The notes beneath the pieces were generated by a model, which searched no databases, was not told the DNA's origin, and saw only the letters and a program-made list of their open reading frames with translations. DNA of 64,000 nucleotides from Modestobacter sp. VKM Ac-2982. GTDB taxonomy: Bacteria > Actinomycetota > Actinomycetes > Mycobacteriales > Geodermatophilaceae. Shown piece after piece: positions 2,952-48,868 of the stretch. Made by a program: the position numbers and the translations under genes. The DNA lies in contig NZ_JAPVBL010000003.1 of assembly GCF_026967935.1 (NCBI RefSeq), positions 248,001 through 312,000 on the forward strand. Reading direction: 5' to 3'. Positions within the stretch are counted from its first letter, which is position 1. Every line of letters begins with the position of its first letter.

Positions 2952-3105
2952 ACATCGTCCTTCCAGCCCGCCGGGTGATCACGATCCCCGTACCGTCGGA
3001 GTACCGGCTGTTAGGGTCCGCCCGGATGACCGGCGGGTTACCGCGGCATCACATGACCGGACGCGGTCGGGCGACGGACCAGGCCGTAGGGAGAACGGAA
3101 CCTCG

Positions 3106-4227
3106 ATGAGCGCCCACAGTGCGGCCCCGACGACGGGGCGGTTCGCGTGGCTCGAGCCCGTCAAGGGCCTGGCCATCTTCATGGTCATCGCCTACCACGT
3201 GACCCTGTACCTGAAGACGGCGGACGTGGACGCCGTGCTCGGCCGCGCCAAGGCCGTCTTCGAGCTCTTCCCGATGCCGGCGTTCTTCCTGATCGCCGGG
3301 ATCTTCGCCGGCCGGCACGGGGCCACGAAGTTCCGCGCGCTGTGGAAGCGGCGGCTGCTGCCACTGCTGTACCTCTACGTCGTGTGGTCGGTCATCCGGA
3401 CCGTCTTCTACTTCGTCGTCCCCGGGCTCAACGGCGAGCTGGGTGAGATTCCGGCGACCGACCCGCTGGCGCTGCCGCTCATCCTGTTCTGGCCGAGCAG
3501 CAGCTACTGGTTCCTCTACGCCCTCTTCCTCTTCACCCTCGGCCGCTGGCTGATCGCCCGGGCGCCGGTCTGGGTGCAGCTGGCCGGTTCCGGGCTGGTC
3601 TCCACCCTCTTCACCAGCGGCCTGGTCGACGCGCAGAACATCGGCTGGAACCGGGTCGGGGCGCTCTTCTTCTTCTTCGTGCTGGGCGCGGTGTTCTCCC
3701 GGGAGATCCGGGACCTCGTCGCCCAGGCGCGGCCGGTGCACCTCGGGATCGCGTTCGCCGCCCTCGTCGTGTCCACCGCGCTGATCGTCCTGGGCTTCCG
3801 CTGGGTCCCGCTCGTGGTGCTCGTCGGGCAGCTCTCCGCCGTCGCCGTGGGCATCCTGATCACCCGGTACCTGGTCCGGCTGCCGGGCTTCGGCATCTTC
3901 ACCTCGATGGGCCAGGCCAGCCTGAAGCTGTACCTGTTGCACCTCTACATCATCGTCGTGGCGACCGCTCTGATCGGGCTGCTGGACCCGGCCTGGCCCC
4001 GGTGGATCGACGTCGGCGTGCAGGTCGCCCTGGTGATCGTCACCGTCGTCGCGTCGTTCGGGCTGGCCCGGCTCACCAGCCGGGTGCGCTGGCTGTACGC
4101 CCCACCGGCCTTCCTCCGCGGTCCGCGTCGGCGCGGTGCACGGCAGGACCCCACTCCCAACGACCCCGAGGCGGCGATCAGCCCGCAGCGCGACCTGACG
4201 CCCCGGCCCACCGAGACGAGGGAATGA
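3106..4227 (+). CDS. Membrane acyltransferase, acyltransferase-3 family
   Basis: A 373-residue integral membrane protein with about ten predicted helices. The N-terminal WLEPVKGLAIFMVIAYHVTL segment (residues 14-33) carries the family H-x-T/x region of PF01757, with the catalytic-type His in AYHVT. Family members move acyl groups onto sugars at the membrane. A 154-nt gap separates it from the acetyltransferase upstream, so it may have its own promoter. A basic, Pro-rich cytoplasmic tail of about 35 residues follows the last helix. Its stop overlaps the possible ATG of the next gene. One of three acyltransferase-3 proteins in the window; the others are at 31277 and 32694. Confidence 0.85.
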   Translation: MSAHSAAPTTGRFAWLEPVKGLAIFMVIAYHVTLYLKTADVDAVLGRAKAVFELFPMPAFFLIAGIFAGRHGATKFRALWKRRLLPLLYLYVVWSVIRTVFYFVVPGLNGELGEIPATDPLALPLILFWPSSSYWFLYALFLFTLGRWLIARAPVWVQLAGSGLVSTLFTSGLVDAQNIGWNRVGALFFFFVLGAVFSREIRDLVAQARPVHLGIAFAALVVSTALIVLGFRWVPLVVLVGQLSAVAVGILITRYLVRLPGFGIFTSMGQASLKLYLLHLYIIVVATALIGLLDPAWPRWIDVGVQVALVIVTVVASFGLARLTSRVRWLYAPPAFLRGPRRRGARQDPTPNDPEAAISPQRDLTPRPTETRE

Positions 4228-4229
4228 CG

Positions 4230-5237
4230 ATGCCCCGGGAACTGCCCGAGCTCCGGCCGGGTGCCGAGCGGCGGCTCGTGCTGGCTGCGTCCACCGGCGG
4301 TCACCTCGCCCAGCTGGTCCGCCTGGCCCCGGGGCTCGGCGCGTCTGCCGACTCGCTCTGGATCACCTTCGACACCGCCCAGAGCCAGTCGCTGTTGGCG
4401 GGCCGGAACGTCCTGCACGTGCCCTACATCCGCCCGCGGGAGGGGCTGAAGATCGCCCGGGCGTTCCGGTCGATCCTGCCCCGGCTGCGGTCGGAGGAGT
4501 TCGACGCCGCGGTGAGCACGGGGTCGGCGCTGGCGCTGGCCGCGCTGCCCGCCGCGCACCTGGCCGGGATCCCGACGCTCTACATCGAGAGCGTCTCGCG
4601 GGTGAACGGCCCCTCCGTCAGCGGCCGGGTCCTGGCCGCGATGCGGTTCGCCCAGCTGCGCACGCAGCACCCGGCCTGGGCGGGCGGCCGCTGGGGCACG
4701 CACCCGAGCGTCTTCTCGGCGTACCGGACGGTGCCCCGGGCCGACCGGCCGGAGGGGCCGCCGCGGCTGTTCATCACCCTGGGCACGCTCCGCGGGTATC
4801 CCTTCCACTCGATCATCGACCGCGTCCTCGAGTTCGGGCTGGCCGACGAGAACACGGTCTGGCAGCTGGGCGAGACGGAGCCCGCGACCGAGCTGCCGGG
4901 CCAGGTCCACCGTGAGGTGTCCGGTGCGGACTTCGACAGGTACGCGCGGGAGGCCGACGTGGTGATCACCCACGCCGGTGTGGGCAGCGTCCTCGGGCTG
5001 CTGGAGATGGGGATCTCGCCGATCGCGGTGGTCCGCCGCCGCGCCCGCGGTGAGCACGTCGACGACCACCAGCAGCAGCTGGCGTCGCTGATGAAGAGCA
5101 GTGGGATCGGCGTCGCCGTCGAGGTCGACGAGCTCTGCCCGGAGGTCGTCGCGGCTGCGGCCCGCGTCCGGGTGGAGGTCGACCCCAGCGGGCCCGGGGA
5201 GACCGGGACGTCGCTGTCGGGCACCGACCTGCCGTGA
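4230..5237 (+). CDS. Fused Alg14/Alg13-like (EpsE/EpsF-type) glycosyltransferase
   Basis: A 335-residue GT-B glycosyltransferase. Residues 21-28 read STGGHLAQ, the Alg14-type membrane-anchoring half; the C-terminal half has VITHAGVGSVLGLLEMGISP near residues 244-263, the Alg13/MurG-like nucleotide-sugar binding loop. In many bacteria the two halves are separate proteins (for example CpsF/CpsG, PssD/PssE); here they are one chain. Start choice: ATG at 4224 overlaps the upstream stop, but GAGGG at 4218-4222 sits only 1 nt before it and 7 nt before the ATG at 4230, so 4230 is preferred. It probably adds the second sugar to the lipid-linked primer on the cytoplasmic face. Confidence 0.85.
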   Translation: MPRELPELRPGAERRLVLAASTGGHLAQLVRLAPGLGASADSLWITFDTAQSQSLLAGRNVLHVPYIRPREGLKIARAFRSILPRLRSEEFDAAVSTGSALALAALPAAHLAGIPTLYIESVSRVNGPSVSGRVLAAMRFAQLRTQHPAWAGGRWGTHPSVFSAYRTVPRADRPEGPPRLFITLGTLRGYPFHSIIDRVLEFGLADENTVWQLGETEPATELPGQVHREVSGADFDRYAREADVVITHAGVGSVLGLLEMGISPIAVVRRRARGEHVDDHQQQLASLMKSSGIGVAVEVDELCPEVVAAAARVRVEVDPSGPGETGTSLSGTDLP

Positions 5238-5298
5238 CGGCCGCCGCGCGGTGCGCGGCGACCGGAGAGCAGTGCGGGCCGGGCATCGCCGGGGGTGA

Positions 5299-5322
5299 CC
5301 GGCGGGCCCGCTGACCCGCCGG
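5299..5322. terminator. Bidirectional hairpin between convergent genes
   Basis: The arms CCGGCGGG (5299-5306) and CCCGCCGG (5315-5322) form a perfect 8-bp stem with an 8-nt loop, inside the 112-nt gap between the convergent glycosyltransferase and ABC exporter. There is no T-tract, as is usual for high-GC actinobacterial hairpins, so a terminator role is inferred from position. Confidence 0.5.
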
Positions 5323-5349
5323 CCGGGGACGTCGGGGGAGCCGGCGGGC

Positions 5350-7152
5350 TCAGGTGACGGTGTGCCCCGCCTGCGAGATCGCGGTGATCTCGCGGAAGAA
5401 CTCGTTGTCCTGCATCAGGGCCGAGGGCGCGTCGATGGCCTGCAGCCGCCCGGCCCCCATCACCATCACCCGGTCGCAGATCGACAGGGTGGACACCCGG
5501 TGCGCGACGAGCAGGAGCAGGACCTCGCCCTTCATCCGGGCCAGGGACTCCTGGACCGCCTGCTCGGACTTGACGTCCAGGGCGCTGGTGGGCTCGTCGA
5601 GGATCAGCACGTCGGGCCGGCCGGCCAGAGCGCGCGCGAGGCACAGCCGCTGCCGCTGCCCGCCGGAGATCGCCGAGGCCCGCTGCCCGATGACCGTCTG
5701 GTAGCCCTCGGGCCAGCTGATGATCTCCTCGTGCAGCGAGGCCTTGCGGGCGGCCTCCTCGACCTCGGCGTCGGTGATGCCGTCGCGGTAGAAGCGGATG
5801 TTGTCGGCGACCGTGCCCCACAGCAACTGCGGGCTCTGCGGGACGTAGGAGACGCGTTCCCGCCAGTCGCTGAGCCGGAAGTCGCGGGCGTCCTGGCCGT
5901 TGACCGTGACGGTGCCGCTGGTCGGCAACCGCAGGCGCAGCAGCAGCTGCACGATGGAGGACTTCCCGGCCCCGGACGGACCGACGATGCCGATCACCTC
6001 ACCGCGACTCGCCTCGAAGGAGACGTCGTGGAGGACGGGGGCCGTGGAGTCGTAGGCGAAGTCGACGTGGGACATGCCGAGCCGCTCGACCCGGGACAGT
6101 GGCTGGTCGCCGTCCTGCCGGGTGTGGCCGGCGTAGTGGTCGAGCGCGCGCCGCAGCCGGCCCATGTACGGGATCAGCTCGTTCATCCGGGTGGAGGAGG
6201 CCTGGATCCGCTGCCCGAAGGTCAGCGACCGGATGAGGATGAGGACGACGGCGCCGAGCTCACCGATCGCCGTCGCCCCGGACAGGTGGACGATCATGAG
6301 GGCGAGGAGCAGCAGGAAGAAGGCGACGCTCTGGTAGAGCGCCGGCACGGCCCGGTTGAGGAAGCGGGTCTGCAGGAGCGGACGGCGCACCTCCTGGATC
6401 ATCTTCTCCACGGCGTCGCGGTAGGCCCGGTTGGCCCCGAAGACCTGGGTCTCCTCGGCCAGCTGCACCATCTCCTGCACGCCCTTGGCGTACTCGACGT
6501 TCTCCGCGCTCAGCGCCCGGGCGTGGCCGCGCTGGCGGCGGGCCAGCGGCGCCAGCATCACGAACAGGACCGCCGAGGCCCCGATCAGGATGAGCGCCGT
6601 CGGGGCGCTGAGCAGGAAGGCGGAGGCGAGCAGCGTGAAGAACATCAGGACGGCGCTGATGCCCTCGGAGAGGGTGGTGACCGCCGCCGAGGCCTGGATC
6701 GCCTGGGTGGTCATCAGCGACTGGAAGTGCCCGTCGCGCTCGGCCGACTGGATCTTCCAGGACGCCGAGGTGAACCGCTCGAACAGGTCGCGCCGGAGGG
6801 CGGCCATCACCGATGCGCTCATCGACGCGGGGACGTAGGCGAGCCAGACCTGCAGCGCGCCGCGGAAGACGGCCAGCCCCAGCCCGATGGCGCAGAGGAC
6901 GAGCAGGGGGGCAGTGGCCTCGAAGGGGCCCGGGATGGCGTCGACCTGCGTCTGTCCCTGGGAGAGCGCGGTGGCGAGGGAGGCGACGAGCGCCAGCAGC
7001 GCGGCCTCGACCAGACCGGCGATCACCGAGCCGCCGGCCATCACCGCTATGCGCGACTTCGACGAGCCGAGGAAGGGGCCGAACTGCTGCCAGGCGGTCC
7101 TGTAGCGCCGGACGACCCTGGTCGGGGTCGGCCACTGCTTCGGCAGTGACAA
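5350..7152 (-). CDS. ABC exporter, fused permease and ATPase (half transporter)
   Basis: A 600-residue type I (MsbA/PglK-like) half transporter. Six membrane helices occupy roughly residues 25-310; the nucleotide-binding domain follows, with Walker A GPSGAGKSS near residues 390-398, signature ISGGQRQRL near 493, Walker B VLILDEPTSALD near 513 and the switch His in VAHRVS near 549. The start is set at a TTG (7152-7150) preceded by AGGAGG 4 nt upstream; an in-frame GTG lies six codons earlier, upstream of that Shine-Dalgarno. The open frame continues to 8037 but that part is antisense to the TupA-like gene. It would dimerise to export or flip a lipid-linked glycan or lipid. It is divergent from the ATP-grasp gene at 7303. 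Confidence 0.88.
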   Translation of the reverse strand: MSLPKQWPTPTRVVRRYRTAWQQFGPFLGSSKSRIAVMAGGSVIAGLVEAALLALVASLATALSQGQTQVDAIPGPFEATAPLLVLCAIGLGLAVFRGALQVWLAYVPASMSASVMAALRRDLFERFTSASWKIQSAERDGHFQSLMTTQAIQASAAVTTLSEGISAVLMFFTLLASAFLLSAPTALILIGASAVLFVMLAPLARRQRGHARALSAENVEYAKGVQEMVQLAEETQVFGANRAYRDAVEKMIQEVRRPLLQTRFLNRAVPALYQSVAFFLLLLALMIVHLSGATAIGELGAVVLILIRSLTFGQRIQASSTRMNELIPYMGRLRRALDHYAGHTRQDGDQPLSRVERLGMSHVDFAYDSTAPVLHDVSFEASRGEVIGIVGPSGAGKSSIVQLLLRLRLPTSGTVTVNGQDARDFRLSDWRERVSYVPQSPQLLWGTVADNIRFYRDGITDAEVEEAARKASLHEEIISWPEGYQTVIGQRASAISGGQRQRLCLARALAGRPDVLILDEPTSALDVKSEQAVQESLARMKGEVLLLLVAHRVSTLSICDRVMVMGAGRLQAIDAPSALMQDNEFFREITAISQAGHTVT

Positions 7153-7302
7153 CTGCCCTCCTGAGATCACGTGCGCGGCCCCGTCCGGGGCGTGGTCAGG
7201 CAGAACCTTACCGTCGACGGCTGGCCGTGCGGAGCGTCGTGGACCACACTGGCGCGAGGGCCGACCTTGCGGCGCGGCGTTCCGTCTGTTGGAGTGTGCG
7301 CC

Positions 7303-8178
7303 GTGCCGCCGGTGCCGTTCTCTCGTCTCGACCTGCAGCGGCTGGTTCCCGTACAGCTGCGGCGGGCGAGGAAGTTCTACCTCCGACACGGTCGGCTCCC
7401 TCCGCTGATCGGGTTCGAGACCTTCAACGACAAGGTGCAGTGGCGGGTCACCCGCGACCGCCGCGAGCTGCTCCGGACCACCTGCGACAAGCTGGCGATG
7501 AAGGAGCACGCGGCCCGGCTCACCCCGGATCTCACCCGGACGCCGGAGACCTACTGGTTCGGCACCGACGTCGCCGAGCTGCGCGACGTGGAGCTCCCCG
7601 CGAACTGGGTGCTGAAGCCCAACCACGCGAGCCAGCGGGTCATCATCAGCGGTGGCCCCGCCGACGTCGAGGAGCTGGCCGAGCAGGTCGCGGGCTGGGT
7701 GACCGAGCCGTACTGGCGGCGCAGCGGCGAGTGGGCCTACCGCACGGCGCGCCCCGGGCTGCTGGTCGAGGAGTTCATCGGCACGCCGGGTGAGGTGCCC
7801 GCCGACCTCAAGCTGTTCGTCTTCGACGGCCAGCCGCGGGTGGTCGCCGTGCACAGCAAGGACGGCGACGTGCACAAGGCCCGGTACTACAGCACCGACT
7901 GGGAGCCGCTGCCCTGGACCGGTGGCTACGCACCGGGGCCCGACACCCCCCGACCGGAGCGGCTGGCGGACATGCTGAAGGCAGCGTCCCTGCTCGCCGC
8001 GGACTTCGACATGATGCGGGTCGACTTCTACGAGCACGACGGGGTGCTGTGGTTCGGGGAGCTGACCCCCTACCCCGCGGCCGGGCTGGCCCGCTACGAG
8101 CCCGAGCTGGACCGGCTGCTGGGCAGCTGGTGGGAGCTGCCCGTCACGGGCCCGAGAGGGCTGCTCCGCCTCCGCTGA
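7303..8178 (+). CDS. TupA-like ATP-grasp protein
   Basis: A 291-residue protein resembling the ATP-grasp family named after TupA of teichuronopeptide synthesis (PF14305). Visible motifs are FNDKVQWR near residue 40, CDKLAMK near 65, NWVLKPNH at 101-108 (nucleotide-binding strand with its Lys), LLVEEFIG near 152, DLKLFVFDG near 167 and FGELTPYP near 252 (metal-binding Glu). ATP-grasp enzymes join a carboxylate to an amine or other nucleophile via acyl phosphate. GTG at 7303 is chosen because GGAG lies 8 nt upstream; GTG at 7294 is also possible. A close paralog lies at 48869. Likely job: attaching an amino acid or peptide to a uronic acid or related group. Substrate is not known. Confidence 0.8.
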   Translation: MPPVPFSRLDLQRLVPVQLRRARKFYLRHGRLPPLIGFETFNDKVQWRVTRDRRELLRTTCDKLAMKEHAARLTPDLTRTPETYWFGTDVAELRDVELPANWVLKPNHASQRVIISGGPADVEELAEQVAGWVTEPYWRRSGEWAYRTARPGLLVEEFIGTPGEVPADLKLFVFDGQPRVVAVHSKDGDVHKARYYSTDWEPLPWTGGYAPGPDTPRPERLADMLKAASLLAADFDMMRVDFYEHDGVLWFGELTPYPAAGLARYEPELDRLLGSWWELPVTGPRGLLRLR

Positions 8179-8194
8179 GCGGGGGCCGCCGTGC

Positions 8195-9187
8195 TCAGGC
8201 GTGCCGGCGGTCCAGCAGGCCGTGGTCGACGTAGAACCGCCGGACGCGCGGGTCGGCCAGGAAGGACCCGTGGAACTGGAACACGTTCAGGTTCGGGACG
8301 CCGGCGTTCCCCTCGAGGACCAGCGGGCCGCGATCGGTGACGCAGACGTCCCAGCCGACGTGCGTGACCTCCGGGAACGCCGTCATCAGCTCCCCGACCA
8401 GGTCGAGCACCTCGCCCCAGTGCGGCACGGTCTCCCCGGTGATCGGCGCCCCGGTGTCGGGGTGCCGGTCGTGGGAGGGCCGGCCCCGCTCCCGCGGACG
8501 GCCCACGGCCGGGCCGAGGCGTCCGGACCCGAGGTCGACGGCGCTGCACAGACCGCCGGAGCTGACGTTGTCGACGGCGCCGCTGGCCGCCGTGCCCCAT
8601 CGGTGGACGGCCGCGGCGACCACCGGGTCGCCGTCCGGCAGTCGGATGGCCAGCGCCCGCAGGGTGTTGAGCGAGCCCGGGTGGACCGCCCGGAGGTCCG
8701 GGTGCTGTTCCAGCCGCTCCTGCACCAGCAGGGCGGCTGCCGGCTCGCCGGCGACCAGGCTCGCGACCCGCTCGCCCTCGACGATGCGGACCCCACGCCC
8801 CCCGGCGCCGTCCAGGGGCTTGAGGACGACGCCGTCCGCGGCCCGCATCCGGTCCAGCGCCGCGGCGGACCGGCCGTGCAGCACGCCGCGGAGCCCGACG
8901 CCGTAGACCTCGGGGGCGGACGCCGCGAGGCCCCGGGCGACCACGGCGTCGGCGAAGACGTTCTTGTCCTCCAGCAGCCGGGCGCCGGCCGGGTGGTTCA
9001 GTCGGCGCAGCCGGGCCTCGACCGCGGCGTCGCTGATGAACGGGACGGCGGGGTCCTGGATGCCGGGGTAGGCGTACCAGCGGTTGGAGAGGAAGCCCCG
9101 CCGCCACATCGAGGGGTGCAGGCGGCCGACGTACTGGCGCCGCTCCAGCCGCGCCATCGTGCGCAGCAGCGTCGCCCGGCTGGTCAC
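8195..9187 (-). CDS. Sugar-transfer-associated ATP-grasp protein (1)
   Basis: A 330-residue protein resembling PF14397, an ATP-grasp family found almost only inside polysaccharide clusters. Residues about 118-136 read VVLKPLDGAGGRGVRIVEG, the ATP-binding Lys and Gly-rich loop; near residues 275-298 is VGWDVCVTDRGPLVLEGNAG, whose Asp and Glu would bind magnesium. GTG at 9187 overlaps the stop of the PP-loop gene (GTGA), so the pair is translationally coupled. The N-terminal 60 residues (YVGRLHPSMWRRGFLSNRWY) are basic and aromatic. It shares fold and motifs with the protein at 9986 but is a distinct sequence. No substrate has been worked out for most of the family; a role in ligating a substituent to a sugar is inferred. 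Confidence 0.8.
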   Translation of the reverse strand: MTSRATLLRTMARLERRQYVGRLHPSMWRRGFLSNRWYAYPGIQDPAVPFISDAAVEARLRRLNHPAGARLLEDKNVFADAVVARGLAASAPEVYGVGLRGVLHGRSAAALDRMRAADGVVLKPLDGAGGRGVRIVEGERVASLVAGEPAAALLVQERLEQHPDLRAVHPGSLNTLRALAIRLPDGDPVVAAAVHRWGTAASGAVDNVSSGGLCSAVDLGSGRLGPAVGRPRERGRPSHDRHPDTGAPITGETVPHWGEVLDLVGELMTAFPEVTHVGWDVCVTDRGPLVLEGNAGVPNLNVFQFHGSFLADPRVRRFYVDHGLLDRRHA

Positions 9188-9924
9188 CCGGCGCTCCGGA
9201 CCCGGCGCCGGGCGGCCCGGGCGAGCCGGCGCGGGGTCCGGGCCAGCTTGCGACCGAGGACCAGGGGCGGAGGAGCGAAGGTGATCCCCTCCCGGTTGGT
9301 CAGCTGGCAGGGCCGGCACTGGCCACAGGGGAGGTCGCCCAGCGGGTCGTGGCAGAACCAGCGCTGCGACAGCAGGTCCAGGAAGCCGTGCTCGCGGGCG
9401 ATCGCGGCCATCTCGCCCTTCGTCGTCCGGAGGACGGGGAAGGACCAGAACCGGAACATCTGCGCCTCGGGTGCGCTGCTGAGCGTGCCGCGGTCGTCGG
9501 TGAAGACGAGGCGGTGCAGCGCGGTGGGGCCGTCGTCGTGGGCCTGCATGCAGATCTCCACGTCGGACCAGCCCAGCGCCTCGGCGACGCCGGCGAGGTA
9601 GACGTACTGGCTGCCGATCCAGGTTCCGTTGCGCAGGATCGAGGCGTTGAGCGCCTGGAGTTCCGCCGACGGCGGGAAGTCCCAGCGCAGGTGCAGCTCG
9701 GTGGGGGCCAGCATCGCCGGGTCGTCGAGCCGGGGCAGCAGCTGCTCGCGCATCCGGGCCATGGTGCTGAGCTCCAGCAGCGTGCTGCGGCGCTCGGGGT
9801 TGACCACGTAGACCGGCTGCACCGGCCGGTGCTCGACGAGCAGCGCCTGCATCAGCCGGAAGGAGGAGTCCCAGCCTCCGGTCCACAGCAGTCGGATGGG
9901 GGTGCGGTCCTCAGCGGCGCTCAT
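9184..9924 (-). CDS. QueC-like PP-loop ATPase in a polysaccharide operon
   Basis: A 246-residue protein of the PP-loop (adenine-nucleotide alpha-hydrolase) superfamily. The pyrophosphate loop is WTGGWDSS at residues 14-21. Cysteines 191, 200, 203 and 206 form C-x8-C-x2-C-x2-C, the zinc-site spacing of QueC (7-cyano-7-deazaguanine synthase). QueC turns a carboxylate first into an amide and then a nitrile with ATP and ammonia. The ATG at 9924 has AGAGG 6 nt upstream; the frame extends 10 codons further but without a better site. It overlaps the ATP-grasp gene downstream by 4 nt and follows another ATP-grasp gene. No other queuosine gene is nearby, so a role in polysaccharide modification, such as amidation of a uronic acid, is more likely. 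That role is inference. Confidence 0.75.
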   Translation of the reverse strand: MSAAEDRTPIRLLWTGGWDSSFRLMQALLVEHRPVQPVYVVNPERRSTLLELSTMARMREQLLPRLDDPAMLAPTELHLRWDFPPSAELQALNASILRNGTWIGSQYVYLAGVAEALGWSDVEICMQAHDDGPTALHRLVFTDDRGTLSSAPEAQMFRFWSFPVLRTTKGEMAAIAREHGFLDLLSQRWFCHDPLGDLPCGQCRPCQLTNREGITFAPPPLVLGRKLARTPRRLARAARRRVRSAG

Positions 9925-9985
9925 CGCCGTCCTCTCGTTCGTTCCAGGGGTCACCGGCCGGGTGCCTCGCAGCCGGCGGCGGGGG

Positions 9986-11119
9986 TCATCGGGAGGTGAG
10001 GGCGCGCCCGGTGCGCCGGACCACCCGGCGGGCGCGGTCCTGGCCCCGGACGAGGACCCCGACGGCGACCTGCCGCGACAGGCGGCCGGTGGGCAGCGGC
10101 ACCCCGAGGCCCTCGAGCCGCTCCCGGGTGTCCGGGTCGGCGAGCCAGCCCTCGTCGGCCAGCATCTGGGAGCCGCGCAGGCTCCAGTGCACGTTGCCCT
10201 CCAGCAGCACGGGGCCGTCCGGGCCGATCACGACGTCCCAGCCGAGGAAGCGCAGCCCGGGGAAGAGGACGGCGGCGCGGCGGCACAGCTCCGTCGTCTC
10301 CTGCCACAGGGGCAGCTGCCGGCCGGCGAACCGCTCGCCGGTGTCCGGGTGGTCGGTCAGGTCGCCCGGCACGCCCTTGAGGATGCCCGGGCCCATCACG
10401 CCGGTGGTCACGTCGATCGGGATGCTGACCCCGCCGGAACCCCAGTTGTCGATCATGCCCCCGCGCCGGCCGAGGCGGATGCTCGCGGCGTGCACGTGCG
10501 CCGTCCCGTCCTCGGCGACGGTGGTCAGGACGCGGCAGGTGTTGGTCGTGGTGGGGGCGAGCGGCTCGAGCTCGGGGTGGTTGCGCACCGCGTGCTGCAG
10601 GACGTAGCCGCTGACCCCGCGCTCACCGCCCGGGTCGAGCGCTGCGAGGACCTGCTCGAGGCTGGTCTCCTCCCCGGTGCGGGTGGTGGCCGTGCCGGTC
10701 GCGTGGTCGATCCGGTCGAGGATGACGATCTGCGCGCCCTGCCCGCCGCCGGCCGGCTTCACCACCAGCCCGGACGGCCGCTCCCGGTCCAGCTCGGCGA
10801 GGACCTGTGGCACGGTGCGCATCGGGCGCAGCCCGTCCCAGCTGACGCCCTGGATGCTGTCGAAGAAGCCGATGGTCGGCGGCACGGACAGCCCGAAGCC
10901 GTGGGCGAAGCGGTAGAAGACCCACTTGTGCTCGGTCAGCACGTGGTTGCGGGGGTCGTTGACGACGTCCTGCACGAACCGGCGGTTCCAGTCGCTGCCC
11001 AGGTACCGGCCGGCGTCGGAGCTCGGGCGCCGGCCGTCGAACCCGTAGGCCGGGATGTCGGCGGGGCGGAAGCCCCACAGCCACACCAGCTTGCTGCGCT
11101 GCAGCCAGGTCAGGGTCAC
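9986..11119 (-). CDS. Sugar-transfer-associated ATP-grasp protein (2)
   Basis: A 377-residue PF14397-type ATP-grasp protein. Residues about 114-131 read GLVVKPAGGGQGAQIVIL (nucleotide Lys and Gly-rich loop), followed by VLQHAVRNHPELEPL, NTCRVLTTV and a C-terminal LGWDVVIGPDGPVLLEGNVH segment near 289-310 with the metal-binding Asp/Glu. GTG at 11119 follows AGGAGGAGC, a strong Shine-Dalgarno. It lies 61 nt upstream of the PP-loop gene in the same operon, and 73 nt downstream of the polymerase gene. The two ATP-grasp proteins differ in length and N-terminus, so they probably act on different substrates rather than being redundant. Confidence 0.82.
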   Translation of the reverse strand: MTLTWLQRSKLVWLWGFRPADIPAYGFDGRRPSSDAGRYLGSDWNRRFVQDVVNDPRNHVLTEHKWVFYRFAHGFGLSVPPTIGFFDSIQGVSWDGLRPMRTVPQVLAELDRERPSGLVVKPAGGGQGAQIVILDRIDHATGTATTRTGEETSLEQVLAALDPGGERGVSGYVLQHAVRNHPELEPLAPTTTNTCRVLTTVAEDGTAHVHAASIRLGRRGGMIDNWGSGGVSIPIDVTTGVMGPGILKGVPGDLTDHPDTGERFAGRQLPLWQETTELCRRAAVLFPGLRFLGWDVVIGPDGPVLLEGNVHWSLRGSQMLADEGWLADPDTRERLEGLGVPLPTGRLSRQVAVGVLVRGQDRARRVVRRTGRALTSR

Positions 11120-11192
11120 GCTGCTCCTCCTACCGATGGGCTCAGGACGTCGCCGGGGTTCCCACCGGCCACGGCATTGTGCCCGAGAACGA

Positions 11193-12689
11193 TCATGGGA
11201 GGGCGGGTTGCTGCCCCGCGACCGCTGGTCCGGACCGGCCGGCGCGGGCGGCGTCGTCCCGGGCGTCGACGCGGAGGGAGGCGATGACGCCGGCGGCCGC
11301 GAAGACGAAGGGGAACGACGGGGACGACACGAACACCGGGGCCACCGCGGACTCCACCAGCAGCAGGATCAGCCAGCCGACCCCGGTGATCCGGATCCAG
11401 CGGACCAGGACGTCCTCGCGGGCGGAGACCCGGCGGAGCAGGGCGATGAGCATGCAGGCGAGCCCGGCCGCGAAGAAGAAGGCGCCGAACCAGCCAGCCT
11501 CGCCGTAGATCGCCGGCCACTGGGAGTCGTTGAGGAACTGACCGGAGTCCGGCCCGGGGCCCAGGCCGTAGCGGCCGGGGAAGCCCAGGGCGTAGTAGAG
11601 GGGGCTGTAGTCCTCCGCGGCCGACGAGCTGGCGTACCGGCCGAACCCCGCGCCGAGGGGGAAGTACTGCGCCGCCACGGTGATCCCACCTGCGGTGAGC
11701 AGGGACCGGGCGGAGTCCTGGGTCAGGTAGATCTCGATGTCGCCACCGATGAGTGCGGCCAGGGGCGGCACCGTGACCAGCGCCACGAGCGGACCGATGG
11801 CGAGGAGTGCGGCGACCCCGACCGGCCGGAGGAAGCGGGCACCGACCGCTGCCAGCGTGGCCAGCAGCCCGACGATCGACTTGACCTGGAAGGTCAGGAA
11901 CGCCAGGCCGCCGGAGACGAGCACCAGGACCGTGTTGGCGACGGACCGGCGGACGACCAGGCCGTAGACGAGCGCGCCGACGGCGAGCACCCCGCAGAAC
12001 CGGCTGAACGCGGCCGGGTGCTGGAACGCGCCGTTGATCGCCGGGAACGGGCCGATGTAGCTGATCGGCGGGCGCCCGGTGGTGAACTCCGCCCAGGCCG
12101 CCGGGAACGCGAGGTTCAGCACGGCGCTGAAGCCCATCAGCACGATCGCGACGATCCCGAGGCGGATCAGCAGCGCCAGGTCGTCACGGGTCCAGTGCAG
12201 CTGCGCCAGCGCGAAGGCGAAGAGGATGCCCTTGACGGCGATGAAGGCCGCGGGGATGCCGAGCCCGGCGGGGACGTCGGCCAGTGCGGCGCTGAGCAGC
12301 CCGGCGATGAGGTAGCCGACGAACCAGCCGGTCCCCGGCAGCCAGACCAGGCGCCCCTCGGTGACCAGGCGCCGCGTGGTGAGGGTGACGACGGCGAGGG
12401 CGATGACGCCCTCGTCGGCGTAGGTGCCCAGTTGCCCGAGCACGTTCTGGATGGGCGCCGACAGGATGATGACGACCAGCGCCAGCAGCGCGAAGAGCTT
12501 CGGCCGGAAGGCGGCGATCGCCACCGCCGTGACGCCGCCGAGCAGGACGATCGGCAGGGCCAGCTCGACCCAGGCCAGGGCGACCAGCACGAAGGCCAGG
12601 ACGGCGGCAGTCACCACCCAGGCGGGCCCGGGAGGTGATCCCGGACCGGACCGGACGGGGGTCGCGCCGGTCGTCGGCGGCGCCGACAT
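11193..12689 (-). CDS. O-antigen ligase/polymerase-like membrane protein (Wzy-type)
   Basis: A 498-residue integral membrane protein with about 11-12 helices and a large periplasmic loop (roughly residues 320-400, containing AAQYFPLGAGFGRYASS and DSQWPAIYGEAGWFG), the layout of the WaaL/Wzy superfamily (PF04932 type). It would polymerise lipid-linked repeat units outside the membrane. The ATG overlaps the stop of the Wzz gene by 4 nt, a Wzz-Wzy translational pair. The two ends are cytoplasmic and basic. It is the first of three polymerase-like genes here (others 22600 and 36864). Ligase versus polymerase cannot be told from sequence. Confidence 0.82.
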   Translation of the reverse strand: MSAPPTTGATPVRSGPGSPPGPAWVVTAAVLAFVLVALAWVELALPIVLLGGVTAVAIAAFRPKLFALLALVVIILSAPIQNVLGQLGTYADEGVIALAVVTLTTRRLVTEGRLVWLPGTGWFVGYLIAGLLSAALADVPAGLGIPAAFIAVKGILFAFALAQLHWTRDDLALLIRLGIVAIVLMGFSAVLNLAFPAAWAEFTTGRPPISYIGPFPAINGAFQHPAAFSRFCGVLAVGALVYGLVVRRSVANTVLVLVSGGLAFLTFQVKSIVGLLATLAAVGARFLRPVGVAALLAIGPLVALVTVPPLAALIGGDIEIYLTQDSARSLLTAGGITVAAQYFPLGAGFGRYASSSAAEDYSPLYYALGFPGRYGLGPGPDSGQFLNDSQWPAIYGEAGWFGAFFFAAGLACMLIALLRRVSAREDVLVRWIRITGVGWLILLLVESAVAPVFVSSPSFPFVFAAAGVIASLRVDARDDAARAGRSGPAVAGQQPALP

Positions 12690-13405
12690 CAGCGTCCCCG
12701 GGTCCCCGTGGCGAGCGCCTGCCGGACCACGATCACCAGGAAGGCCACGAGCAGGCCGACCGCGAGACCGATGAGCAGGTTGAGCAGGAGCAGCGGCGAG
12801 GCGAGCTCGTCGGGGATCTCCGGCGCCTCCACCACGGTCCCGGTCACGTTGATCGGGTTGGCGACGGTGTCCTCGCCCTCGATCTGGGTGATCAGGCTGG
12901 CGGCGATCGCGTTGGCGAGCTCGGCCGCGTTCGTCGGCGTGCCGGCCTCGACGGTGATGTTGATGATCGACGTCCGGGGGATGACCTCGGCGGTGACGTT
13001 GTCCACGAGGTCGGTGGAGGCGACGTCCGCGTCGATGGCGTCGATGGCGGGGTCGAGCACGGCCGGGGTCTGGGCCAGGGCCGCGTAGGTGTCCACCCGG
13101 TCGGCGACGAGCGCCGATGCCTGGGACAGGCTCTCGGCGGCAGCGCCGGCAGCGCCCGCGACGGCGGCGCCGTTCGCGTCGACCGGGACGGAGACGACCG
13201 GGTCGACCAGGATCTTCGTCTCGGTCTCGTACCGCTCCGGGAGGAAGACGGTGACGAGCCAGCCGGCCAGGAGCCCGGCGACGACGGCGGCCACGATGAC
13301 CAACCAGCTCCGGCGGATCACGCGCAGCACGTCGCGCAGCTGCATGGAGTCCCGGGCCTCGTGCCGATAGCGGGGGAGCGGAGGCGCCGCGGTGTCGATG
13401 GTCAT
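12689..13405 (-). CDS. Wzz-type chain-length determinant
   Basis: A 238-residue protein with a helix at about residues 32-53 (SWLVIVAAVVAGLLAGWLVT), a 120-residue extracytoplasmic domain and a second helix near 205-228, the PF02706 Wzz/polysaccharide co-polymerase layout. No kinase domain is attached. The extracellular part contains TNAAELANAIAASLITQIEG, the coiled region typical before the second helix. ATG at 13405 has AGAGG 9 nt upstream; the frame extends 18 codons further without support. It is translationally coupled to the polymerase. Wzz proteins set the modal chain length. Confidence 0.83.
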   Translation of the reverse strand: MTIDTAAPPLPRYRHEARDSMQLRDVLRVIRRSWLVIVAAVVAGLLAGWLVTVFLPERYETETKILVDPVVSVPVDANGAAVAGAAGAAAESLSQASALVADRVDTYAALAQTPAVLDPAIDAIDADVASTDLVDNVTAEVIPRTSIINITVEAGTPTNAAELANAIAASLITQIEGEDTVANPINVTGTVVEAPEIPDELASPLLLLNLLIGLAVGLLVAFLVIVVRQALATGTRGR

Positions 13406-13455
13406 GTCAGTGGTCCTCTCGGGTGGTGCCGATGTGCGGGAGTCAGGCGCGCCGA

Positions 13456-14373
13456 TCACAGCTGCTCCTCGAGGAAGGTCAGGACCGCGCGCCGCACGTC
13501 GCTGTTGAGCAGCGTGATCCCGTGGTCGGGTTCGTCGACGATCAGCAGCTCCGCCGGGACGCCGGCGTCCGCCAGCGCTGCCGCCAGTGCCTCGGCCTGT
13601 TCTTCCGGCACCAGTTCGTCGGTGCCGTTCACCAGCAGCATCGGGGGGTCGGAAGGGTCCACCCCGGTGATGGGCGAGGCCGGCACCGACTGCGGGCAGT
13701 CGGTCACCGAGGTGCAGCCGAGGTAGTTCAGCACCAGGTCGGCGGCGTCCTCGCTGGGCTGACCCAGTTCGAGGCCCTCGGGGGACAGCACGGAGACGCC
13801 GCTCAGGGACGCCACCGCGCCCAGCCGTTCACCGGTGTCCAGCGGGCCCTCGCCACGCGTGGCCAGGCTCTGCGCGATGATCGCGCCGGCCGAGCTGCCG
13901 ATGGCGCCGATCCGCGCCGGGTCGATCCCGAACTGCTCCACCTGGGCGGGCTCGCGCAGCCACTGGACTGCGTTGGCGAGGTCGTCGACCTGGGCGGGGT
14001 AGGTGAACTCCGGGGCGAGCCGGTAGTCGATCGAGAAGGCGGCTGCGCCCTGCTCGGCGGTCAGTTCGCACAGGGTGCGCAGCCCGGTGTTGTCGCGTGC
14101 ACCTTCGGTGAAGCCGCCGCCGTGCACGATGAGCACGGCTGGGAGCGGCCCCTCGGCGTCGGTGGGGAGGCAGGCATCGAGCTTCAGCTCGGACTGCTCG
14201 TCGGACCAGTAGGTCAGCCCCTCCTCCACCGCGACGTTGGCCGGACCGGGATCGAGCCGGGTCGTCGGCTCGGAGTCGGAGGAGCAGGCGGTCAGCGTGA
14301 CGAGCAGTGCGGTCAGCCCCATGGCTGCACGGGGGACGCCGGACCGCGACGTGGCGGGACTGTTCACATGCAT
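13456..14373 (-). CDS. Alpha/beta-hydrolase esterase lipoprotein
   Basis: A 305-residue secreted esterase of the hormone-sensitive-lipase/BD-FAE type. A signal peptide ends in the lipobox LTAC with Cys30 as the lipidation site. The oxyanion motif HGGG is at residues 84-87, the nucleophile Ser161 is in GSSAG, and Asp and His are expected in NGTDELVPEE and EPDHGIT near the C-terminus, so the triad is complete. It sits 50 nt upstream of the Wzz gene and reads toward it. A likely job is removing O-acyl groups from the exported polysaccharide or a related glycan at the cell surface. Substrate is inferred from context. Confidence 0.8.
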   Translation of the reverse strand: MHVNSPATSRSGVPRAAMGLTALLVTLTACSSDSEPTTRLDPGPANVAVEEGLTYWSDEQSELKLDACLPTDAEGPLPAVLIVHGGGFTEGARDNTGLRTLCELTAEQGAAAFSIDYRLAPEFTYPAQVDDLANAVQWLREPAQVEQFGIDPARIGAIGSSAGAIIAQSLATRGEGPLDTGERLGAVASLSGVSVLSPEGLELGQPSEDAADLVLNYLGCTSVTDCPQSVPASPITGVDPSDPPMLLVNGTDELVPEEQAEALAAALADAGVPAELLIVDEPDHGITLLNSDVRRAVLTFLEEQL

Positions 14374-18198: not shown

Positions 18199-19329
18199 GT
18201 GAAGGTCGCGATCGCTCACGACTACCTGACACAACGGGGTGGGGCCGAGCGAGTGGTCCTGTCGATGGTGAAGGCGTTCCCCGACGCAGAAGTGCACACG
18301 CTTCTGTACGACCCGGCGACCACCTTCAGCGAGTTCGCTGACGTGCGTGTGCGTACTTCCCGACTCAATGACGTCGGCTTCCTGCGCCGGGACCACCGCA
18401 GGGCGCTGCCACTCCTTCCGTTTGCGGCGAGTCGGCTGAAGATCGATGCAGATGTCGTGCTGGCCAGCACCAGCGGGTGGGCTCACGGCTTTGATACCGG
18501 GAACGCCACACTCGTGGCCTACTGCTACTCGCCGGCGCGCTGGCTCTACCAGCATGACCGGTATCTGGGGGAGAACCCGCCACGCTTGCGCAGCATCGGT
18601 CTCCAGGCCTTGCGTCGTCCGCTCATTGCCTGGGACAAGCGCGCTGCTCAGCGGGTGGATCACTACCTGGCCATCTCAACGGTCGTACAGCAGCGCATTT
18701 ACGATGTGTATGGCAAGACGTCCACGCTTGTCCCCGCGCCACTGAGCGGCTTCGCCAGCGGCGCACGTGCGCGGCCTGCTGAACTGTCCGATCACCTGGT
18801 GAGGGGCGGATTCCACCTCTGTGTCAGTCGCTTGTTGCCGTACAAGAACGTACGCCAGGTGCTGGAAGCTGCGCGGATTGCGGGCGTCAACCTCGTCATC
18901 GTGGGGAAGGGGTCTGAGGCGGAGTCGCTGAGAATGGCAGCGGGGCAGCGCGGTCAGGTGCTGTCTGATCTGAGCGACGCCGAAGTGGCGTGGTTGTACG
19001 CGCGCTGCGACGCATTGATTGCTGCCAGCTATGAAGACTTCGGTCTGACGCCGCTGGAGGCTGCCGTGCACGGGAAGCCGAGCATCGCACTCCGCTTTGG
19101 AGGCTTCTTGGACACCATGATCGAGGGGGTGACCGGAGTCTTCTTCGACGAGCCGACGCCCGAGCTAATCGCTGTTGCCATCGGGCGGGCCCGGGATGTC
19201 GTGTGGTCGGGTGAGGCGATCAAGGCACGGGCCGCCGAGTTTTCCGAAGATCGTTACATCGATCGGCTCCATTCCGCAGTCCACGCGGCGGCGACAGCTC
19301 GAAATGCTGTTCAGGGTCTGCCTGGCTGA
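18199..19329 (+). CDS. Glycosyltransferase family 4
   Basis: A 376-residue GT-B retaining glycosyltransferase. The N-terminal Rossmann half opens with VAIAHDYLTQRGGAERVVLS (residues 3-22), where the Gly-Gly motif contacts the donor phosphate. The C-terminal half has FHLCVSRLLPYKNVRQVLEA near 210-229, VIVGKGSE near 234 and the E-x7-E motif in YEDFGLTPLEAA near 276. It starts at GTG 18199. Base composition is clearly AT-richer than in the 0-18 kb region and codon use less GC-biased. It begins a block of three glycosyltransferases with a flippase, polymerase and Wzz. Donor and acceptor are not predictable. Confidence 0.87.
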   Translation: MKVAIAHDYLTQRGGAERVVLSMVKAFPDAEVHTLLYDPATTFSEFADVRVRTSRLNDVGFLRRDHRRALPLLPFAASRLKIDADVVLASTSGWAHGFDTGNATLVAYCYSPARWLYQHDRYLGENPPRLRSIGLQALRRPLIAWDKRAAQRVDHYLAISTVVQQRIYDVYGKTSTLVPAPLSGFASGARARPAELSDHLVRGGFHLCVSRLLPYKNVRQVLEAARIAGVNLVIVGKGSEAESLRMAAGQRGQVLSDLSDAEVAWLYARCDALIAASYEDFGLTPLEAAVHGKPSIALRFGGFLDTMIEGVTGVFFDEPTPELIAVAIGRARDVVWSGEAIKARAAEFSEDRYIDRLHSAVHAAATARNAVQGLPG

Positions 19330-19458
19330 GGGCACACATCGCCTCTCTCGTCAGACGAATGTTCAGACGGGGCGGGTCGAATGGTCTCGTTCATTGTTCC
19401 TCACGCCCACTCCAGTCGCTGACCCGAGTCGGCATCAACAGAAGGTGGCTCCGACCGC

Positions 19459-20274
19459 GTGCGCATCACTTTCGTCACGATCGCCCAGAATGAAGAGAAG
19501 AAGATCGCAAGGTGCATCCACTCCACACGTGGGCTGGGGCAGCACCTCGTCATCGACGGCGGCTCTCGAGATGGCACCGTTGCCACTGCCGAGGAGTTGG
19601 GCTGTCGGGTGCTCAAGCGGACCTACAGGTACTCGGCGGACCAGTACAATTACGGGCTGTCGCAGGTTGAGACCCCTTGGGTGTTCATCCTGGACGCCGA
19701 TGAGACCCTCAGTGATCGCTTGCGTCAATCACTGGCCGAATTGGCTGACGCGGGCGAAACGGTTGCTGCCTATGAGGTGTCGCGGCTGAACCTGGTCTGG
19801 GGTCGCCCGCTGCGGCATGGTGGTTGGTACCCGGACTTCAATGCACGCCTTCTCCGAGTCGGAAAGGTGCGGTATCAGGACCGGGAGGTGCATGCGCGGC
19901 TGACCATTGACGGGGAGCTCGGTAGACTGGTTGGGGACATCGTCCATGAGACGTACGATTCAGTCGACCACTATCTCACGAAGCTGAACAAGTTCACGAC
20001 CCGGGAACTGCTGGCGAGAAACCGTGCCAATGCCTCGACCGAAGCAGTGGCAGCCAAACGTGAGTTGTGGCTGCGTACGCCGTTCAAGCCGCTGACGAAG
20101 TTCCTGTACCAGTACGTGGCCAAGCAGGGCTTTCGTGACGGACGACTGGGCCTGGACATGGCGATCCTGTCCGCCTTCTACGAGTACATCGTCGGCGTGA
20201 AGAAGCGATCCGGTCTGGCTGCTGGCGCTCCCGGGTCGTTGCAGTCCCCAGCCCGCGATGTTGTCCAGCCGTGA
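19459..20274 (+). CDS. Glycosyltransferase family 2 (WaaE/KdtX-like)
   Basis: A 271-residue GT-A transferase. Residues 31-40 read VIDGGSRDGT and residues 78-82 LDADE, the nucleotide and metal-binding motifs of inverting GT2 enzymes. The arrangement after it, NLVWGRPLRHGGWYPDFNAR and then GDIVHETY, matches the WaaE/lipopolysaccharide core beta-1,4-glucosyltransferase subgroup. GTG at 19459 lies 129 nt after the previous stop. The C-terminal amphipathic helices (KFLYQYVAKQGFRDGRLG) suggest membrane association. Its stop overlaps the GTG of the next glycosyltransferase by 4 nt. Confidence 0.87.
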   Translation: MRITFVTIAQNEEKKIARCIHSTRGLGQHLVIDGGSRDGTVATAEELGCRVLKRTYRYSADQYNYGLSQVETPWVFILDADETLSDRLRQSLAELADAGETVAAYEVSRLNLVWGRPLRHGGWYPDFNARLLRVGKVRYQDREVHARLTIDGELGRLVGDIVHETYDSVDHYLTKLNKFTTRELLARNRANASTEAVAAKRELWLRTPFKPLTKFLYQYVAKQGFRDGRLGLDMAILSAFYEYIVGVKKRSGLAAGAPGSLQSPARDVVQP

Positions 20275-21242
20275 AGCACCTCCTGGTCGAATCGCGCTGG
20301 AGAGGTGACTTCGGCATCGCTCGCTACGCGCGCGAGATGGTCCCGCGGCTCGGCATGAGCACTGTCCAGGTGGCAGCCCACTTGGGTCCAGGCGCTCCGC
20401 TGGACCCGGTCTACCTCTCCTCCCTCCTCGCCAGGGACCGGAGTGCACACTTCTACAACCCCGGGTTCAACGCCGGGGTCGGCTTCACAGCCCGGCAGTC
20501 CTTGACCATTCATGACCTCATCCACCTCGATGTCGAGGCGGAGTCCTCGCGGGCGAAGGCTCTGTACTACCAAAAGGTGGTCCGCCCGGTGGTCCGTCGC
20601 AGCCCTGTGACGTTCACGGATTCCGAGTTCAGTGCACGGCGGATCACGGAGTGGTCCGGGATCGACGAGGATCGGTTGGTGATCGCTCGTCCCGGGATCA
20701 GCCAGGTGTTCTTGGACGTCCCGCTGAGGCCTGCGCCTGATCCGTACGTCCTCGTCGTGGGCAACGCGAAGCCGCACAAGCGCGTTGCCCTCGCCCTCGA
20801 GGCGGCGCGCCACCTGCCGGATGGGCTGGGGCTGGTCTGTGTGGGGCTGAACGTCGACGAGGCCCGTCGTCTCGTGGACGACCCGGCAGAGACTGTCACC
20901 TACCGCCAGAACTGCAGCGACCAGGAGTTGGCGGGGCTGTACGCAGGAGCGGCGGCGGTCGCGTTCCCGTCCGCCTACGAGGGCTTCGGGTTGCCGGCCC
21001 TGGAGGCCATGGCAACAGGTACCCCTGTGGTCTATTCCGCCGTTGCCGTCCACGAGTTCGCCGTGGGATACGGCACCCTCTTGCATCACGGAGCAGACGC
21101 GCGGGAATGGGCGGATGCACTGGTGACCGCCACAGAGCATCGTGCCGAGATGCAGGCCGCTCGACGAGCCCGAGCAGCAACGCACACATGGGATCAGGCT
21201 GCTGCCACGGTAGGTGTGCGCCTACAGGCCCTCCTCGGCTGA
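20271..21242 (+). CDS. Glycosyltransferase family 4
   Basis: A 323-residue GT-B transferase, shorter than typical, with a reduced N-terminal domain (WRGDFGIARYAREMVPRLG near residues 10-28). The C-terminal half has YVLVVGNAKPHKRVALALEA near 158-177 and the E-x7-E motif in YEGFGLPALEAMATGTPVV near 237. GTG at 20271 overlaps the previous stop, so the two are translationally coupled. The last 21 nt overlap the 3' end of the convergent flippase gene. It resembles WbaZ/mannosyltransferase-type proteins in length and motif. Confidence 0.85.
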   Translation: MKHLLVESRWRGDFGIARYAREMVPRLGMSTVQVAAHLGPGAPLDPVYLSSLLARDRSAHFYNPGFNAGVGFTARQSLTIHDLIHLDVEAESSRAKALYYQKVVRPVVRRSPVTFTDSEFSARRITEWSGIDEDRLVIARPGISQVFLDVPLRPAPDPYVLVVGNAKPHKRVALALEAARHLPDGLGLVCVGLNVDEARRLVDDPAETVTYRQNCSDQELAGLYAGAAAVAFPSAYEGFGLPALEAMATGTPVVYSAVAVHEFAVGYGTLLHHGADAREWADALVTATEHRAEMQAARRARAATHTWDQAAATVGVRLQALLG

Positions 21243-26765: not shown

Positions 26766-28085
26766 ATGAAGATCTCGGTCATCGGTTGCGGCTACCTGGG
26801 CGCGGTGCACGCGGCCTCGATGGCCGAGCTGGGGCACGACGTCGTCGGCATCGACGTCGACCAGCCGAAGATCGACGCACTGCAGCGGGCCAAGGCGCCG
26901 TTCTACGAGCCCGGCTTTGAGGAGCTGCTCGGCACCTCCCTGGCCTCCGGGCGGCTGCGGTTCAGCACCGACATGGCTGACGCCGCCGACGCCGTCATCC
27001 ACTTCGTCTGCGTGGGCACCCCGCAGAAGCGCGGCGAGTACGCCGCCGACCTGCGCTTCGTCGAGTCGGCCGTCGAGGGTCTGTTGACGGCGCTCAAGCC
27101 GGGTGACCTCGTGGCCGGGAAGTCGACGGTGCCGGTGGGCACGGCGGCTCGGCTGGCGGAGCTGGTGGCCGACAAGGTGCCGGGGGCAATGCTGGCGTGG
27201 AACCCGGAGTTCCTGCGGGAGGGCTTCGCGGTGCAGGACACGCTGCACCCGGACCGCCTGGTCTACGGCCTGCCGGCCGGCGCCGACGGTGAGACGGCGC
27301 GGGCGATGCTGGATGAGGTGTATGCCTCGATCGTGGCGGCGGGGACCCCGCAGGTGGTCACCGACTACGCGACGGCGGAGATGGTGAAGACGGCGGCGAA
27401 CTCGTTCCTGGCCACGAAGATCTCCTTCATCAACGCGATGGCCGAGCTGTGCGAGGCCACCGGCGCGGACGTGAAGCAGCTGGCCGATGCGATCGGGCAC
27501 GACGACCGGATCGGCCGCAAGTTCCTCAACGCCGGCCTGGGCTTCGGTGGTGGGTGTCTGCCCAAGGACATCCGGGCGTTCATGGCCCGCGCCGGGGAAC
27601 TCGGCGCGGATCAGGCGCTGACGTTCCTGCGCGAGGTGGACAACATCAACATGCGCCGGCGGATCCGGATGGTGGAGCTGGCCCGCGAGGTCTGCGACGG
27701 GTCGCTGGTCGGCAAGCGGGTCGCCGTGCTCGGAGCGGCGTTCAAGCCCAACAGCGACGACATCCGCGATTCCCCGGCGCTCAACGTCGCCGCCCAGCTG
27801 CAGCTGCAGGGTGCGGCGGTACGGGTGACCGACCCGGCGGCCGGGGACAACATCCGCCGCAGCTGGCCCCAGCTGGACGCCGTGGACACCCCCGAAGAGG
27901 CCGCCGACCGCGCCGACGCGGTCCTGGTGCTCACCGAGTGGCAGCAGTACCGTGACCTGGACCCCGTCTCCTTCGGCAAGATCGTCGGGCAGAAGCGGAT
28001 GCTCGACGGCCGCAACGCCCTGGACCGCGACCGCTGGGTCGCCGCCGGCTGGACCTACCGCGCCCTCGGCCGCCGCGCCGGCTGA
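26766..28085 (+). CDS. ugd: UDP-glucose 6-dehydrogenase
   Basis: A 439-residue NAD-dependent enzyme that oxidises UDP-glucose to UDP-glucuronate in two steps. The N-terminal Rossmann loop is GCGYLG at residues 8-13, KSTVPVGTA lies near residue 119, the catalytic Cys264 is in GFGGGCLPKD (259-268) and the C-terminal domain has AFKPNSDDIRDSPALN near 323. Length and motif order are those of the Ugd/TuaD/RkpK family. ATG at 26766 follows GGGGAG about 10 nt upstream. It supplies uronic acid for the repeat units, and so possible substrate for the ATP-grasp/PP-loop modifiers. GC content is back to the cluster norm here. Confidence 0.93.
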   Translation: MKISVIGCGYLGAVHAASMAELGHDVVGIDVDQPKIDALQRAKAPFYEPGFEELLGTSLASGRLRFSTDMADAADAVIHFVCVGTPQKRGEYAADLRFVESAVEGLLTALKPGDLVAGKSTVPVGTAARLAELVADKVPGAMLAWNPEFLREGFAVQDTLHPDRLVYGLPAGADGETARAMLDEVYASIVAAGTPQVVTDYATAEMVKTAANSFLATKISFINAMAELCEATGADVKQLADAIGHDDRIGRKFLNAGLGFGGGCLPKDIRAFMARAGELGADQALTFLREVDNINMRRRIRMVELAREVCDGSLVGKRVAVLGAAFKPNSDDIRDSPALNVAAQLQLQGAAVRVTDPAAGDNIRRSWPQLDAVDTPEEAADRADAVLVLTEWQQYRDLDPVSFGKIVGQKRMLDGRNALDRDRWVAAGWTYRALGRRAG

Positions 28086-29726: not shown

Positions 29727-29922
29727 GAGTTCTCCGACCGTTGATAGAGCGTCAATCCTCTGTCACGCATGGAGGATCGTGCGTTATCGACACGGTGGGC
29801 GATGGCTTAAACTTGATACTCGCTGAGTCCGCAGGGCTGTCGTCAGCGTTCGTCGCCAGTCGGATGCGGCCTCATAGCTACGCAACGTCCGGATGCTGAG
29901 CAGGGACCCCGGCGCACGGCTC

Positions 29923-45961: not shown

Positions 45962-46990
<1,029 letters not shown>

Positions 46991-48785: not shown

Positions 48786-48868
48786 CGAGCTCAGCGTGGG
48801 GCCCCAGACGTGGTCACCGCTCGACCCTAGGAGTCCCGCCCAGCGGCCGCTGCACCAGACTCCCGGTC

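Follow-up and report, generated by a model that had tools for sequence, protein, structure and literature searches.

A QueC sister family linked to ATP-grasp ligases in an exchangeable cassette of a Modestobacter polysaccharide locus

Enzymes with the QueC fold have long been viewed as tRNA-modification enzymes and, according to the accessible part of PMC13329287, have recently been re-used in phage defence and other chemistry: Cap9 (type IV CBASS) and QatC are QueC-fold ATP-dependent carboxylate-amine ligases, and WbpG-type N-sugar amidotransferases, with an O-antigen example, are PP-loop (ATP pyrophosphatase loop) enzymes of the same Pfam family. As for polysaccharide loci, the part of PMC11800379 available to us describes Cj1438C of the Campylobacter capsule, a TupA-like amidoligase that amidates glucuronic acid, and mentions neither a QueC-like enzyme nor a sugar-transfer-associated (ST) ATP-grasp in that system. 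Here we describe a 64,000-nucleotide stretch of the soil bacterium Modestobacter sp. VKM Ac-2982 (contig NZ_JAPVBL010000003.1, positions 248,001 to 312,000; hereafter the window), in which a PP-loop gene of a QueC sister family lies between two ST ATP-grasp genes and beside a TupA-like ATP-grasp gene that, like the one for Cj1438C, stands in a polysaccharide locus. The four genes, called in an earlier note on this DNA, are confirmed, and comparison with locus L029 of Modestobacter sp. VKM Ac-2985 delimits an exchangeable block:

7303..8178, plus strand: TupA-like ATP-grasp (PF14305, 83 bits, cut-off 25), tail to tail with the ST-PP-ST cassette
8195..9187, minus strand: ST ATP-grasp, about 330 aa (PF14397, 135 bits, cut-off 31.4), its start overlapping the stop of the PP-loop gene
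9184..9924, minus strand: PP-loop/zinc protein, 246 aa, QueC sister family, core of the cassette (motifs, alignment, AlphaFold2 model)
9986..11119, minus strand: second ST ATP-grasp, 377 aa (PF14397, 161 bits, cut-off 31.4), 61 nt upstream of the PP-loop gene
8183..11183, no strand assigned: exchangeable block ST-PP-ST (blastn breakpoints 8182 and 11184 against L029)

The PP-loop protein carries WTGGWDSS and CHDPLGDLPCGQCRPC (C-x8-C-x2-C-x2-C), the two motifs given in the earlier note. It scores 15.4 bits against the QueC profile PF06508 (cut-off 22) and 14.9 against TIGR00364 (cut-off 150.3); since the PF06508 score lies below the cut-off, "QueC-like" is correct and "QueC" is not. Its closest named relative, from Modestobacter sp. 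VKM Ac-2984, is 99% identical. A scan of a genome collection yielded 97 confirmed stretches, the best 80 of which gave 79 loci of closer relatives, to which locus counts refer; an 85-row family alignment was built from database loci and loci of a further genome search. Y39, E51, Q106, P163, C191, C200, C203 and C206 are invariant in this alignment and the PP-loop residues nearly so, while in a wider set of 104 sequences the D and S of the loop are each kept in 101 and the cysteines in 102 or 103. Both the loop and the cysteines are conserved in homologs, as the earlier note's proposal would have it.

Like QueC (7-cyano-7-deazaguanine synthase, PF06508), the PP-loop protein has the fold, the PP-loop and the Cx8CxxCxxC zinc site. 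Unlike in QueC, the loop of its family is mostly TGGWDS, as in the window, and not SGGxDS (TGGxDS in 79 of the 85 rows, strict SGGxDS in 2, TSGWDS in 3, the region lacking in 1). The zinc motif C(x)8CxxCxxC has a spacing of 8 in 46/85 rows and of 8-9 in 82/85; the strict 8-9 pattern matches 7 of 16 full-length QueCs, whose spacing varies, taken as controls from genomes that also carry the PP-loop family. Three motifs found in 12, 14 and 15 of these controls, YxQxHxxE, VPxRN and YPDC, each occur in none of the 85 aligned family members. According to the accessible part of PMC13329287, they hold residues whose mutation abolished queuosine formation, so the acid-amide-nitrile sequence of QueC, on which the earlier note had drawn, is not simply transferable to this family. 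The absence of motifs with residues required for preQ0 formation also argues against a nitrile made from an acid or amide in the manner of QueC, ToyM or ArtA, as do the nearby amide ligases, which suggest amides; such a product is hardly probable.

Profile-profile comparison with hhalign aligned the family to the 16 QueCs nearly end to end (95.4% probability, E 1.8e-8, 190 columns, 17% identity), and among solved structures the family profile retrieved QueC first (3bl5, E 8.4e-5; 2pg3, E 5.2e-4). The family hidden Markov model gives the 16 QueCs just 7.8-19.3 bits. Given these weak cross-scores and the absent motifs, the PP-loop protein is a member of a patchily distributed sister family of QueC, not a QueC. 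That the gene is real and not a chance reading frame follows from the conserved motifs, the matches to solved QueC and an AlphaFold2 model with a predicted local distance difference test score of 94.1. Ka/Ks values against L022 and L023 are 0.06 and 0.21 for the PP-loop gene, 0.10 and 0.16 for tupA and 0.18-0.30 for the two ST genes, which indicates purifying selection on all four genes.

The nearest solved folds to this model are Cap9, at the top, YcfA and QueC. The top match would fit a Cap9/QatC-like enzyme that ligates a small acid to a protein N-terminus, for example that of a neighbouring ATP-grasp, with a regulatory or defensive role. However, the signature motifs YxDC (Cap9) and CGxCxxRR (QatC) each occur in 0/85 members, a Pfam scan of 34 window proteins showed no CBASS, CD-NTase or Qat gene (PADLOC was not searched), and the genome lacks QueD and TGT, which together make this reading very unlikely. 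The Pfam family shared with WbpG and its O-antigen example, together with the fact that the second step of QueC, too, activates an amide, would allow for a WbpG-like N-sugar amidotransferase that activates an N-acyl amide to form an amidine on an amino sugar. WbpG makes amidines together with HisH/HisF-type or glutaminase partners. Its cysteine pattern CxxC(x)6CxC is matched by none of the 85 members, and no HisH/HisF or other glutaminase is present among the 34 scanned proteins; we therefore consider this activity distinctly unlikely.

Searches of the Modestobacter genome found neither TGT nor QueD (QueE and FolE were not searched for), in line with the earlier note's view of a QueC relative without queuosine function and, as far as tested, at odds with the sole QueC of a queuosine set. 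The genome has eight PF06508 places, none at the PP-loop gene; the best (21.5 bits, or 22 with neighbours in frame) covers 57/210 positions within a 708-aa frame, so the genome has no full-length QueC. Of the other genomes with a family member, 30 were checked: PF06508 matches at E 1e-5 turned up in 19, of which 16 contain a full-length QueC and one more a split QueC. A conventional QueC serving queuosine or 7-deazaguanine synthesis would account for the PP-loop and zinc motif but is already contradicted by the score under the cut-off, the missing QueC motifs, the lack of QueD and TGT and the separate full-length QueC in 16 of the 30 other hosts, and is extremely improbable. Two Thioalkalivibrio genomes (L156, L157) encode, in addition to a full-length QueC and a member of the PP-loop family, another divergent protein that matches PF06508 at 104-110 bits.

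The link to ATP-grasp ligases, which the earlier note had seen in this one cassette, is borne out by co-occurrence and adjacency. In the ST ATP-grasp, K121, D295, E307 and N309 are invariant in 21 rows, and the AlphaFold2 core of the second ST protein (9986..11119) resembles RimK, D-Ala-D-Ala ligases and LysX/ArgX, the amino-acid ligases RimK, LysX and ArgX being the best structural matches. In the Modestobacter genome, PF14397 exceeds its cut-off at two genes, both of which flank the PP-loop gene, and stays below it (25 bits) at a third place. The PP-loop gene occurs in 10 of 112 genomes of the same bacterial family (Geodermatophilaceae, by its members). Full-length PF14397 (>100 bits; leaving out the single weak match, at 29.6-33.5 bits, seen in each of 19 genomes) is present in 7/10 genomes with the PP-loop gene versus 1/102 without it (Fisher p 2.6e-8, uncorrected for relatedness), and TupA in 44/112, including 10/10 with the PP-loop gene (p 4.4e-5, likewise uncorrected); both tests count the window's genome (G000) and G102, which are near-identical at the cassette. 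Of the 15 full-length PF14397 genes, ten sit no more than 2 kb from a PP-loop gene; in G101 the PF14397 gene is far from the PP-loop gene, in G029 three more are on another contig, and G062 has one but no PP-loop gene. Across the 30 other genomes, mapping by hand put 5 of the 31 PF14397 places at most 4 kb from the PP-loop gene (L031, L038, L056, L058, L082), against 0.06 expected if each genome has one PP-loop locus; the 30 were picked to span the 79 loci and include some already known to have ATP-grasp neighbours.

At 19/79 database loci, ST or TupA is encoded no more than 4 kb away. The remaining 60/79 have no ATP-grasp within that distance, so the link is not universal. On a 101-row quick tree, where ATP-grasp labels are incomplete for short loci, the no-ATP-grasp label takes 12 changes, at least five of them forced by starred branches, which indicates that the partnership was gained or lost repeatedly. 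With midpoint rooting, the tree splits into halves of 46 and 55 rows; of the 28 rows with a nearby ATP-grasp, 22 fall in the first half and 6 in the second, which comprises Xanthomonadaceae, Bacteroidota and others. Among 104 first-half neighbours from outside the window's bacterial family, taken from 161 listed, glycosyltransferases are the commonest Pfam class, alongside 4 Mur ligases, 3 CapA, 3 TupA, 3 EamA and 2 ST proteins; FAD-binding and ribosomal-protein neighbours also occur. An unusual pair is seen in Marinobacter (L067 8776-10788, L073 6088-8001), where a Mur ligase joined to a peptidyl-tRNA-hydrolase-like domain adjoins the PP-loop gene; a CapA gene also adjoins the locus in L073.

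Some neighbourhoods of the PP-loop gene raise the alternative that the main role of the family is in small-molecule metabolism unrelated to glycans, the polysaccharide clade being a side branch that makes an amide or nitrile building block, for example an amine attached by TupA. In a Lysobacter locus of the second half of the tree (L078 5079-7751), haem-oxygenase-like, glyoxalase and class III aminotransferase genes adjoin the PP-loop gene; by clustering of open reading frames (ORFs), the haem-oxygenase-like and glyoxalase families recur in 14 Xanthomonadaceae loci, possibly as a separate small-molecule pathway. Two further kinds of neighbour are PEP-mutase-like genes, seen at a single locus each in Lysobacter and Steroidobacter, and nitronate monooxygenase, seen at a single Flavobacteriaceae locus. 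Yet such neighbours vary by lineage and may be incidental, whereas the ATP-grasp association recurs on separate branches; we regard this alternative as unlikely.

A comparison of close relatives shows the cassette differing as a unit. Window positions 2001-8182 and 11184-14881 are 94.3% and 91.3% identical in DNA to L029 (blastn), whereas the 3.0-kb ST-PP-ST segment between them gives way there to some 0.86 kb that lacks ST genes and encodes just one PP-loop protein, 47% identical to that of the window. The breakpoints lie just beyond the end of tupA and just beyond the 3' end of the Wzy-like gene. We interpret this one clear pair as a case in which a polysaccharide locus has swapped its specificity module. 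The comparison also suggests that the PP-loop gene, and not the ST genes, is the constant part. The window arrangement is shared by L022 and L023 at 96% and 88%, Geodermatophilus L027 has one ST gene followed by three PP-loop genes, and at seven of the bacterial family's eight named loci (L022-L029, except L024) a TupA gene is found no more than 4 kb away. Two or more PP-loop domains, at most four, are found in 12/79 loci; in Nitrospinaceae locus L036 (2971-6527) four tandem PP-loop paralogs follow an EamA exporter.

The surroundings of the cassette agree with the polysaccharide setting proposed in the earlier note:

5350..7149, minus strand: fused ABC exporter flanking the cassette, start not fixed (PF00664 + PF00005)
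11193..12689, minus strand: Wzy-like polytopic protein, about 11 predicted transmembrane segments (hydropathy; no Pfam match), upstream in the same apparent operon
12689..13459, minus strand: Wzz-type chain-length protein (PF02706, 33.7 bits)
13456..14373, minus strand: alpha/beta hydrolase, upstream of Wzz (PF20434/PF07859)
18199..21242, plus strand: three glycosyltransferases, GT4, GT2 and GT4 (PF00534, PF00535, PF00534)
26766..28085, plus strand: UDP-glucose/GDP-mannose dehydrogenase, Ugd type (PF03721, PF00984, PF03720)

Read along the minus strand, the genes are those for alpha/beta hydrolase, Wzz, Wzy-like, ST, PP-loop and ST proteins, with spacings of -4, -1, 73 and 61 and a GTGA overlap; apparently these genes form one operon. 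The GTGA (9184-9187), shared by the PP-loop stop and the next ST start, makes translational coupling plausible from sequence. The three glycosyltransferases, a LytR-CpsA-Psr protein and the Ugd-type gene, 15.6 kb away, all lie within 20 kb of the cassette. As parts of a Wzx/Wzy-type locus, Wzz and the glycosyltransferases are recognised by Pfam, Wzy by hydropathy alone, Bac_transf lies about 30 kb off, and no flippase was identified. Elsewhere in the window, a second TupA-like ATP-grasp (48674-49753, plus strand, 84 bits) lies in a separate glycan region, together with genes for a bacterial sugar transferase (42676-44178) and an APS kinase (45962-46990), one inositol-phosphatase-like gene and one GT4-like gene. 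Two plus-strand ORFs, 15057-16367 and 16667-17728, have near-alike signal-like N-termini (VPRSRFVS...) and no Pfam match and are perhaps a tandem secreted pair; two GH5 (cellulase-family) genes at 28278-31086 (minus strand) adjoin the polysaccharide locus and may serve in glycan trimming.

We favour the view, which we hold about as likely to be right as wrong, that the PP-loop protein adenylates carboxylates and forms amides, and that it acts together with RimK/TupA-type ligases to decorate an acidic surface glycan. The block would be a variable decoration cassette of a surface-polysaccharide locus; its core, an enzyme of the QueC fold, has retained the ATP pyrophosphatase loop and zinc knot but differs in its pocket motifs. 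This enzyme would adenylate a carboxylate (ATP to AMP and pyrophosphate) on a uronic acid or amino-acid substituent of a lipid-linked glycan and turn it into an amide using ammonia or a small amine; its conserved basic C-terminal tail suggests action at the membrane. The RimK-like ST ligases and the TupA-like ATP-grasp may form further amide bonds on the same glycan via acyl phosphates, and a ligase set varying by strain would yield chemically different surfaces. For the earlier note's suggestion of uronic acid amidation, the TupA partner has a precedent in Cj1438C (PMC11800379, accessible part), while the chemistry of the PP-loop enzyme itself is what we infer.

We rate the family and its setting as new within a known superfamily. 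No cluster of this kind is described in the accessible part of a 2026 survey of QueC, and, in line with the earlier note, no described system with this gene set was found among the open-access papers searched, which leave out most subscription papers. The full proposal, somewhat less likely than even, is that an undescribed branch of the QueC superfamily acts as a glycan-decorating adenylating amide (or nitrile) synthase on lipid-linked polysaccharide carboxylates, in relay with RimK-like and TupA-like ligases, as a strain-swapped cassette that diversifies the cell surface. If this holds, the association of a QueC branch with amino-acid ligases at surface-glycan loci would carry the re-use of this fold into cell-surface chemistry, offer a way to locate amidated or aminoacylated polysaccharides from genome sequence and help to correct QueC annotations. 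The two Modestobacter strains, with the same flanking genes and differing decoration genes, provide a natural comparison, and a cassette that differs as a unit between close relatives points to an unrecognised chemical decoration of surface sugars.

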